DNA of 64,000 nt from Candidatus Binatia bacterium (lineage in GTDB: Bacteria > Desulfobacterota > Binatia > Bin18). Below, one piece after another: positions 52,036-58,280 of the stretch. The stretch is taken from positions 1 through 64,000 of the forward strand of contig JAJDTY010000047.1 of the NCBI GenBank assembly GCA_022826945.1. The letters run 5' to 3'. The notes beneath the pieces were generated by a model that was not told the DNA's origin, ran no database searches, and saw nothing but the letters and a program-made list of their open reading frames with translations. The translations under genes and the position numbers were made by a program. Every line of letters starts with the position of its first letter. Position 1 is the stretch's first letter.

Positions 52036-52569
52036 TCAGGAGCCCGCTCGCCCCGTCACTTTTTCAACCATCTGACCGAACACGGCCTCGGCCCGGCCGT
52101 GGACTTCCTCCGGCGTGAGCGGCTGGATGGGGTGCTCCACCAGGATGACCTTGAAGTTCGGCATGCCGAGCGCCTTGGCCTGCGCAAGCGCGGCATTGGA
52201 AAACTCGGTCGTGGCAAACACCGCAGAGGGGATACCGGCTTTTTCAAAAAAGATGCCGTCGTGCACACTGCACGTTGTACACGACCCTCAATCGGCTAGG
52301 GCTTCTATCAGAAAATCGCATTTTTGGACCAGTTCCTGACGGATGTCCTCCGGTGCCGGACGGGCGAACGTGGGCTTCATGCGCCGGATGATGGCGCGCG
52401 GCTGAAAGTGTACGGTCAACATCTCTTCCACGCGGTCCAGGAAAAAATTGCCCTTGGCCTTGCTGATGTCGAGCAGACCAACGGTCTTGTCGCGCAAGTC
52501 CGGTACACGGGCCGCAAGCGTCGCGGCGGCCTGCTTCGGGGCTGCGGTCGGGTCATAGAGTTTTGGCAT
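52036..52569 (-). CDS. UGSC family selenoprotein (UGA read as selenocysteine)
   Basis: 177 aa if the in-frame TGA at 52290-52288 is read as Sec (residue 94). Before it: 'MPKLYDPTAAPKQ', 'DKTVGLLDISKAKGNFFLDRVEEML', 'CDFLIEALAD'. After it: 'GSCTTCSVHDGIFFEKAGIPSAVFATTEFSNAALAQAKALG' and 'VILVEHPIQPLTPEEV'. The order U-G-S-C-T is the defining motif of the UGSC family, so both halves belong to one protein, not to a gene and a fragment. A 10-bp stem-loop begins two bases after the TGA. Function in the family is unknown; a redox role is inferred from Sec94/Cys97/Cys100. 22 bases downstream of the 52592 gene, same operon. Confidence 0.85.
52258..52285 (-). promoter_or_regulatory. Candidate bacterial SECIS stem-loop
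   Basis: On the minus strand GTCGTGTACA pairs perfectly (one G-U) with TGTGCACGAC around the loop ACGTGCAG. The stem starts two bases after the TGA, and the loop falls 13-20 bases after it, with a G near the loop start as SelB requires. It lies inside the coding sequence for G-S-C-T-T-C-S-V-H-D. Confidence 0.7.
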
Positions 52570-52591
52570 GTCGTTCTCCTCTTGAGGGGGT

Positions 52592-53650
52592 TTACGTCTC
52601 TATGGGTACGGTCACCAGATCGCTCCGCCCGGCGCCGCCACCCCAGCCGCACATATGTACGGAAAAGCGTCCGGCCGTCCCACCGGCCACGACAATAATA
52701 ATGCCGTCCGGGGAGGACACTTTCGGGATCAGGCTGAAATCGTCTGCGGCGTTCAGCCAGCCGGGCAGGTTGTCCCGCTTCACGCCTTCACTGCCGTCCG
52801 GTCCGGGAAGGAGTTCGTGCAGCGGTCGACGGACGTTCTCGTACAGATAGCGCTTGACGTCCTGTTTGCTCATACCGTCGGCGGCAATGCTGTTGGCGTG
52901 CTCCGGGCCGAGCACGACGATATAGTTGCCGGCCAGATAGGTCTTATCGCTCCAGCCCACAGCCATACTGGCCCCGAGGGTGTCGAGAATACCACGCGCC
53001 GTACGGCTGCCGTGATTACTCACACACTGCGGAGCGTCGCAGCAATAGACGCTGATGGTGCTCTGCGCCGGCTCGTAGCCGTGCTCGACGTGGAGCGGTT
53101 CCCACGGGTTCTGTTCTTCGTACTCGCCAATGCAATAGGTGTATTTGCCGGGATGGCCCATGGTTGACTTATCGATCTCGCCCGGATGCGCCCCGCCGAT
53201 ATTGATCATGATCAGGCGCAGCGCCCGGCCTATGGTCGCATTGGCCCGCCAGCCCGAACCAAACACGCCGGCCGCGCAGTTAATATCGAGCTGCTGGCGG
53301 ACCGGGCCGTTGATCATAAACAGCGGCGTGGCCGTGTGGGTGGTGCCCTGCACGCCGTGTAGATTGGCCCGTTCGTCGCACATCGCCCGAACACCAGCAA
53401 TCACGACCGGCAGGAATGCCGGCTTGCAGCCGGCCATAACCGCATTCACGGCGATCTTCTCGACCGAGGCTTCCCCAAAATTGGGCGGCACGAGCGCAAC
53501 CACTTCGTCTGCGGCCTGTGAGGTGGCAGCCAGCATGAGCTGCATCCGTTCTTCCGTTGGGGGGACAACGGGCAACCCGTCGGTGACGCCCTGCTCGAAG
53601 TAGTATTCGATGGCGTCGAGTTCCGCGTTCAGGGGCGCGTCGTGCGACAT
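52592..53650 (-). CDS. Conserved protein next to the UGSC selenoprotein
   Basis: 352 aa, no family name I can assign with confidence. 'GLPVVPPTEERM', 'VNAVMAGCKPAFLPVVIAGVRAM', 'NGPVRQQLDINCAAGVFGSGWRANATIGRALRLIMINIGGAHPGEIDKSTMGHPGKYTYCIGEYEE', 'GIIIVVAGGTAGRFSVHMCGWGGG'. Eight or more cysteines, including YCC and QC in 'VYCCDAPQCVS', suggest metal or thiol chemistry. Proteins of this type often sit beside UGSC genes; a shared pathway is inferred. No signal peptide. Ends 22 bases before the selenoprotein start. Confidence 0.7.
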   Translation of the reverse strand: MSHDAPLNAELDAIEYYFEQGVTDGLPVVPPTEERMQLMLAATSQAADEVVALVPPNFGEASVEKIAVNAVMAGCKPAFLPVVIAGVRAMCDERANLHGVQGTTHTATPLFMINGPVRQQLDINCAAGVFGSGWRANATIGRALRLIMINIGGAHPGEIDKSTMGHPGKYTYCIGEYEEQNPWEPLHVEHGYEPAQSTISVYCCDAPQCVSNHGSRTARGILDTLGASMAVGWSDKTYLAGNYIVVLGPEHANSIAADGMSKQDVKRYLYENVRRPLHELLPGPDGSEGVKRDNLPGWLNAADDFSLIPKVSSPDGIIIVVAGGTAGRFSVHMCGWGGGAGRSDLVTVPIET

Positions 53651-57095: not shown

Positions 57096-58280
57096 TTGGC
57101 TAGCGAATTTACGGACGGTAGTGATGGACTTCGGGTTGATGCGGTCTACGAAGGTGTCAGACAACCCAATGGAAACTACGCTGACCCGCTCAATCGACTC
57201 GTAAATGTCGCCAATCAAGGTGGCTTCAGGTACCGCGGGACAAAAGATAATCCTGCATTAATCGTCCTCACATCAAATTTTGCAGAACCCGATTGGCCGG
57301 ATGAATTGGATTCAGCAACTGGTCGCTTCGTGTATTATGGGGACAATCGCGAACCCGGCCAAGAGCTACACGAGACAAGACGATTCGGTAATCACCTGTT
57401 ACGTACGGTATTCGATCATCTACATCTTGGTCGCCGACATCTGTGTCCGCCCATTTTGGTATTTGCGGCGCTGCGTACCAAGCGTGCTTTTGTATTTCGT
57501 GGTTTGGCGGTTCCTGGTTTTCCTGGTGTACCACCAACTCAAGATTTAGTCGCCATATGGAAATCCGTTAATGGGCAGCGCTTCCAGAATTATCGCGCCA
57601 CATTTACAATCCTGGATGAAGTAACGATAGCGAAGCACTGGACCGACGAGGCCAAGAAGGAACTGCCAGATGTTGCACATGCACCCCTCTCTTGGAAACA
57701 ATGGGTTGAAACAGGAGAGTACAAGCCTCTACAAGCACCTGCGACCAGAGCCGTTCGCACAAGAGAGGAGCAGTTACCTCAAGATCAAATTGATAGGAGG
57801 ATCGTCGAGTGTATTCGTAGTCGATTCGAGAGCAGACCAACGGACTTCGAAGCTTGTGCAGGTGAGCTTGCTAAGCTGTTGCTGCGCGACGTGATAGACC
57901 TTGACTTAACTAGACCGTGGCGCGATGGTGGACGAGACGCAGTAGGCAAGGTTCGACTAGGCCGTGATAGGGCATCGATCGCGGTCAATTTCGCGCTTGA
58001 AGCTAAATGCTACAGCAAGAGAGGCGTGGGTGTCGCTGATGTATCTCGCCTTATTTCCCGGATACGCCATCGTGAATTCGGAATTCTAGTGACAACTTCC
58101 CACGTGGGTACACAAGCATACAAGGAGATCGTGGAAGATGGTCACCCTGTGGTAATTGTCTGTGCACGCGACATTGTAACTTTGCTTAAAGAAGAGGGGT
58201 ACGCCACGCCTGAGGAAGTGGTGAGATGGCTTGATAGTCTAGATCCACAAAAAAACACTTATAGTAAAGCTCACCACTAG
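57096..58280 (+). CDS. AspBHI/MspJI-like restriction endonuclease
   Basis: 394 aa, TTG start at 57096 (AAGGGA upstream; no in-frame ATG fits). The N-terminal part 'GLRVDAVYEGVRQPNGNYADPLNRLVNVANQGGFRYRG', 'DWPDELDSATGRFVYYGDNREPGQELHETRRFGNHLLR' and 'RFQNYRATFTILD' matches the AspBHI N-terminal DNA-recognition domain. The C-terminus is a PD-(D/E)xK nuclease: Asp277 ('WRDGGRDAVG') and Glu302-x-Lys304 ('FALEAKCYS'), then 'VGVADVSRLISRIRHREFGILVTTSHVGTQAYKEI' (Mrr-like). Relatives cut 5-methylcytosine-containing DNA. The gene is visibly more AT-rich than its surroundings, which suggests transfer. Confidence 0.85.
   Translation: MASEFTDGSDGLRVDAVYEGVRQPNGNYADPLNRLVNVANQGGFRYRGTKDNPALIVLTSNFAEPDWPDELDSATGRFVYYGDNREPGQELHETRRFGNHLLRTVFDHLHLGRRHLCPPILVFAALRTKRAFVFRGLAVPGFPGVPPTQDLVAIWKSVNGQRFQNYRATFTILDEVTIAKHWTDEAKKELPDVAHAPLSWKQWVETGEYKPLQAPATRAVRTREEQLPQDQIDRRIVECIRSRFESRPTDFEACAGELAKLLLRDVIDLDLTRPWRDGGRDAVGKVRLGRDRASIAVNFALEAKCYSKRGVGVADVSRLISRIRHREFGILVTTSHVGTQAYKEIVEDGHPVVIVCARDIVTLLKEEGYATPEEVVRWLDSLDPQKNTYSKAHH

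Follow-up and report, generated by a model that had tools for sequence, protein, structure and literature searches.

A UGSC-family selenoprotein and its constant partner in a Candidatus Binatia bacterium: a putative two-subunit Sec-dependent reductase related by profile to GrdB and PrdB

For D-proline reductase, a mechanism has been proposed in which PrdA binds proline through a pyruvoyl group and PrdB uses its Sec to attack the alpha carbon, with cleavage of the C-N bond and resolution of the selenoether by a PrdB Cys (PMC3091704, available part). The UGSC family was in print by 2008, when a fusion (UGSC/Unknown_1) was described from ocean metagenomes in which UGSC is joined to an uncharacterised conserved domain (PMC2398784, available part). 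The accessible portions of the literature on the family do not assign it a catalytic role, which agrees with the initial annotation of the locus studied here. The UGSC gene described below is a new member of this already known family and one of seven paralogues in the genome of a Candidatus Binatia bacterium. It lies in a stretch of 64,000 nucleotides (contig JAJDTY010000047.1, positions 1 to 64,000; the window).

The gene occupies 52036..52569 on the minus strand, starts with ATG at 52569, ends with TGA at 52038-52036 and encodes 177 residues. The initial annotation had claimed this interval as a single frame with a TGA and had given no strand. The sequence AGGAG at 52576..52580 (minus strand) is a probable ribosome-binding site. 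The in-frame TGA at 52288..52290 (minus strand) corresponds to residue 94, and the joined frame reads EALAD-U-G-S-C-T-T-C at this point; Cys97 of the UxxC motif, with its codon at 52279..52281 (minus strand), is likely the resolving cysteine. As predicted, conventional reading splits the gene into ORFs 52569-52288 (93 aa, ATG) and 52266-52036 (76 aa, GTG). The further claim that the 3′ half has no start close to it fails, because this GTG sits 8 codons downstream of the TGA.

The joined protein matched PF24696 over residues 4-172 (4e-49; 167.5 bits vs. a cut-off of 25) and NF041046 over residues 28-171 (7.4e-47; 159.1 bits vs. a cut-off of 125). It is a member of the UGSC family over its whole length, with both curated cut-offs passed, as had been proposed from the U-G-S-C-T motif, which is present in the translation. 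Both matches span the TGA, so the two sides belong to one family. The nearest named relative, from a Candidatus Binatia genome (L093; partner 93% identical), has the TGA conserved. Between the two genes, dN/dS was 0.109 upstream and 0.045 downstream of the TGA, values that derive from small numbers (8 and 4 amino-acid-changing differences) and point to selection on both halves.

The genome had been predicted to carry selA, selB, selC and selD, none of them in the window. All four were detected in the assembly (4.71 Mb, ∼90% complete), and among the matches listed all are on contigs C29, C81 and C17, none on C35, the contig of the window. The tRNA-Sec gene (selC) scored 70.7 bits, above the Rfam cut-off, with anticodon TCA, and SelA (603.7 bits) is encoded on the same contig ∼240 bases away. 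SelB (384.9 bits) and SelD (309.2 bits, in a 764-codon frame) were, like SelA, above their family cut-offs. Neither a missing Sec machinery nor unrelated sequence on the two sides of the TGA was found, and the interpretation of the initial annotation is supported.

The UGSC family was found in 30 of the 297 genomes sampled from the phylum. In the richest genomes 11 candidates were scored, so the matches number at least 89; among the 89 listed, 81 carry at least one in-frame TGA (two of them carry two and one has further stops). The seven copies in the genome of the window have one TGA each, and 35 of 36 fetched UGSC loci have TGA at the motif, the remaining one (L055) having Cys. The TGA could alternatively be an error of sequencing, or mark a pseudogene or a regulatory stop. 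That it interrupts the frame is the sole point in favour of such a reading, which is very improbable in view of the recurrence of the TGA in all seven copies and in these relatives, the purifying selection past it, the complete machinery and the covarying hairpin described below. That the TGA is decoded as selenocysteine is nearly certain from these comparisons, and an annotation ending at the TGA would misdescribe both halves of the gene.

Homologues with Cys at the Sec position, for which the initial annotation had suggested a search, do exist. Among 70 partner loci with UGSC (see below), 62 are Sec forms and 8 are Cys forms, which with L055 makes nine such relatives. The eight come from Candidimonas (C. 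nitroreducens, L106), two Mycobacterium, Parapusillimonas (P. granuli, L112), the archaeon Natrialba, an Acetobacteraceae bin, Sphingomonas and a Binatia bin; because of them, Sec is probably not strictly required for UGSC function. A selA gene above the cut-off was present in 37 of 42 Sec-form genomes vs. 3 of 8 Cys-form genomes (Fisher p 0.005), a comparison that covers 42 of the 62 Sec loci. Two of the five Sec genomes with no selA above the cut-off have fragments at contig ends. Among 103 Sec sequences, position 97 is Cys in 100 and Ser in 3, and a second Cys (C100 in the window, giving UxxCxxC) is present in 55.

Sec genes lie near the UGSC-partner pair in three loci of one family: tRNA-Sec, SelA, SelB and a SelD-like fusion in L152 (Hyphomonadaceae); tRNA-Sec, SelB and a SelD-like fusion in L165 (Henriciella); and tRNA-Sec, SelA and SelB in L172 (Henriciella). 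These stretches may represent a compact selenium cassette.

The stem-loop CGTGC-AGTGT-GCACG at 52260..52274 (minus strand) lies 13 bases past the TGA. When 103 Sec codons (99 distinct sequences) were aligned without gaps, 92.9% of the cells of its five-pair stem, which closes a five-base loop, were paired, and the best slid register reached 57%. Two-sided changes in the stem numbered 54; the 500 shuffles averaged 13.7, and none reached this count. Two of five covariation measures were unremarkable: the number of pairs with two-sided change was equalled in 187 of 500 shuffles, and that of further pair types in 18 of 500. Because the stem coincides with codons of conserved residues, part of the pairing is due to protein constraint. 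In the eight Cys forms, one of the five stem pairs was kept in all and the other four in 50 to 62%. With the window sequence folded alone, a competing hairpin, in which bases 6-15 from the TGA pair with bases 24-33, was predicted to be more stable than the conserved stem. Single-sequence folding past the TGA gave z values of -1.58 and -2.48 (window, two lengths), -0.90 (L020) and 0.21 (L023), and an Rfam scan of the window at gathering scores gave zero matches. The conserved stem-loop is probably a SECIS element, less clear in the window sequence by itself.

Upstream of the UGSC gene, at 52592..53650 on the minus strand, lies a gene for a 352-aa protein that matched no family in Pfam and NCBIfam profile searches, hereafter the partner. 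Its TAA stop is 22 bases ahead of the UGSC start, so both genes are probably on one transcript. A partner relative adjoins UGSC at all seven copies in the same genome, which has eight partner matches, and is present in 35 of the 36 fetched UGSC loci (7 of them from this genome). In the genome of the exception (L047), a partner is on the same contig, ∼95 kb from the lone UGSC gene. A partner-seeded search was evaluated on the best 80 stretches out of at least 584 that were confirmed. Of these 80, 70 contained UGSC in the stretch examined, always on the same strand, with the partner first in 50 and UGSC first in 20, and the gap between matched parts did not exceed 400 bases in 66 of the 70. The genomes of the other 10 loci all have a UGSC match somewhere.

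In several loci the two are joined in one open frame, UGSC first (e.g., L035, L041, L051, L147 and L153; L039 is the same gene as L147) or partner first (L124, 7872-9626). The distance matrices of UGSC and partner were correlated over 72 pairs (r 0.815, 0 of 1000 permutations), and part of this correlation stems from the relatedness of the organisms. Within the seven paralogues of one genome, r was 0.865 (17 of 5039 permutations), and here host kinship cannot be the cause. The structure predicted for the fused L147 protein (pLDDT 90.4, pTM 0.91) suggests that the two domains would be packed in a defined way; a fold search with this model, in which aligned ranges were not displayed, returned no match naming the partner. 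As judged from gene order, fusion and co-variation, there is strong support for the proposal that UGSC and the 352-aa protein make up one enzyme, either as its two subunits or as fused domains. The Unknown_1 domain, as described in the available part of PMC2398784, is likely this partner. Apart from that 2008 fusion with an unnamed domain, a constant partner is not stated in the accessible portions of the literature on the family. The partner was also considered as a relative of GrdE, GrdB or UGSC and was rejected as such (hhalign probability <1% each).

The genes around the UGSC and partner loci (210 of 282 neighbouring ORFs examined) showed no dominant family and named no pathway. CoA_transf_3, the commonest in the first neighbour set, was matched by 7 of 124, and by 2 of 86 in the second. 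In L093 the pair is flanked by a MetX-like hydrolase, a cupin and the end of an amidohydrolase, as in the window, with most of HpaB further off. Three Poribacteria loci (L105, L110 and L123) have the partner with no adjacent UGSC, followed by two small genes that are alike in the three loci and look like CBS-domain proteins; CBS was matched by 2 of 124 neighbours. In the window, the first ∼43 residues of the HpaB-like frame at 56287-54815 (minus strand) belong to a DNA cytosine methyltransferase (PF00145 over 20-48). L093 matches this frame from residue 44 on only, so the junction arose by recombination or assembly. A gene for an AspBHI-type restriction endonuclease (PF18062 with Mrr_cat; 57096-58280, plus strand) lies near this methyltransferase fragment. 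A hydantoinase A and B pair (43480-39564, minus strand) belongs to a catabolic region that also has, at a greater distance, two amidases and a luciferase-like monooxygenase.

The model of the window UGSC protein (pLDDT 92.6) has five alternating strand-helix units; Sec sits between the third strand and the third helix, immediately ahead of the latter. We read the predicted fold as Rossmann or flavodoxin-like. Foldseek gave lumazine synthase as the best match (TM ∼0.5), the matches being varied and none close, and thioredoxin was not named among the 50 listed of 1805. Aligned by hhalign to thioredoxin, UGSC gave a probability of 1% or less (E 0.046 and 0.16; two Trx sequences, thin profile). 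The published label of a 'Trx-like fold', in the part of the source available, is probably wrong. Searches of solved structures by sequence gave no convincing match (best E 0.008 for the window UGSC, 1.5 for the partner, none for a GrdB, 1.5 for the A2 profile and 0.12 for the A3 profile).

These results bear on the possibility that UGSC acts in general thiol or peroxide redox chemistry, as a thioredoxin-like or peroxidase-like protein, with the partner as its redox client. The UxxC motif would fit such a role, and a peroxidase activity of GrdB is named in the title of a reference within the available part of PMC3091704. We consider this role unlikely, since neither the hhalign comparison nor the modelled fold resembles thioredoxin, and a role of that kind would give little reason for a co-varying partner, paired or fused, and for seven copies.

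We show instead a profile relation to another group of selenoproteins. A profile of 31 UGSC sequences aligned by hhalign with 6 GrdB (E 1.4e-9) and with 23 short PrdB-like sequences (E 1.9e-7), with the Sec columns aligned. A second UGSC set (n = 74, with the window protein included and L147 once more) gave 1.1e-8 and 5.4e-6, respectively. UGSC showed no such similarity to GrdE or to the partner. With the U, G, S and C columns masked, the scores were 46.6 (GrdB) and 41.3 (PrdB-like), vs. at most 22.2 in 200 column shuffles each. The UGSC-GrdB similarity is limited to ∼70 to 103 columns around Sec. At the level of profiles, UGSC thus appears related to the Sec-bearing part of GrdB and PrdB and not to thioredoxin. 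The window UGSC protein did not match PF07355 at E 0.001, PF24696 being its only match; PF07355 matches end just before Sec. The accessible portions of the literature on the family were not found to state the UGSC-GrdB relation, which is no proof that it is unpublished, and a search for literature on selenoproteins with SAR202 found no paper.

The same genome has three short GRDB-like (PF07355) matches, L071 (G000:C83:114092-114511), G000:C54:16274-16756 and G000:C29:2750-3106. The frame of L071 continues through a TGA into U-P-V-C and so looks like a further selenoprotein.

By analogy with D-proline reductase, we propose, at a probability of ∼0.55, that UGSC and its partner form a two-subunit Sec-dependent reductase that would cleave a C-X bond of a putative substrate, with the TGA encoding the Sec. 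The partner would hold and activate the organic substrate. Sec94, located where an alpha-helix begins, would attack a carbon and expel the leaving group, cutting a C-N, C-S, C-O or C-halogen bond. Cys97 would then convert the selenoether into a selenide-sulfide, to be re-opened by thioredoxin or a comparable reductant. The multiple paralogues of a genome would serve different substrates. That the cleavage would be reductive is likewise inferred from the analogy. The pair may also catalyse another type of reaction, not a reductive bond cleavage, in which Sec would serve as nucleophile or metal ligand. The uncharacterised partner family, the varied neighbours (e.g., CoA transferases, luciferase-like monooxygenases and TctC receptors) and the Ser found at position 97 in 3 of the 103 Sec sequences would allow for this, but the Cys present in the other 100 fits a redox cycle, and this alternative appears improbable, also in view of the relation of UGSC to GrdB and PrdB. 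The function of the putative Sec-dependent reductase can be put to the test, given its constant partner, its distant kinship to enzymes whose mechanism has been proposed and the Cys forms present in named isolates.

More tentatively, and with somewhat less than even confidence, we suggest that (i) UGSC and its partner constitute a third, pyruvoyl-free branch of the GrdB/PrdB-type Sec-dependent reductases; (ii) this branch is present in numerous bacterial groups and in at least one archaeon (Natrialba, Cys form); and (iii) its paralogues act on different substrates. No GrdE/PrdA homologue (PF09338) was found in this genome and the partner is unlike GrdE and GrdB, so the pyruvoyl chemistry of Grd and Prd has no visible counterpart here. 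PrdB of D-proline reductase has its Sec and Cys arranged as in UGSC, which in the window reads UxxCxxC (U94-C97-C100), and the Sec residues are aligned in the profiles. GrdB has E-[KR]-A-G-I-P shortly past Sec, as does UGSC, and H-P near the C-end in four of six GrdB rows. The number of residues after Sec is 83 in the window UGSC, 86 in GrdB (Sec at 350 of 436) and 90 in PrdB (152 of 242) of C. sticklandii, whereas the part ahead of Sec is shorter in UGSC than in GrdB and PrdB. GrdB and PrdB pair with GrdE and PrdA; UGSC pairs instead with an unrelated partner, which may occupy the place of PrdA.
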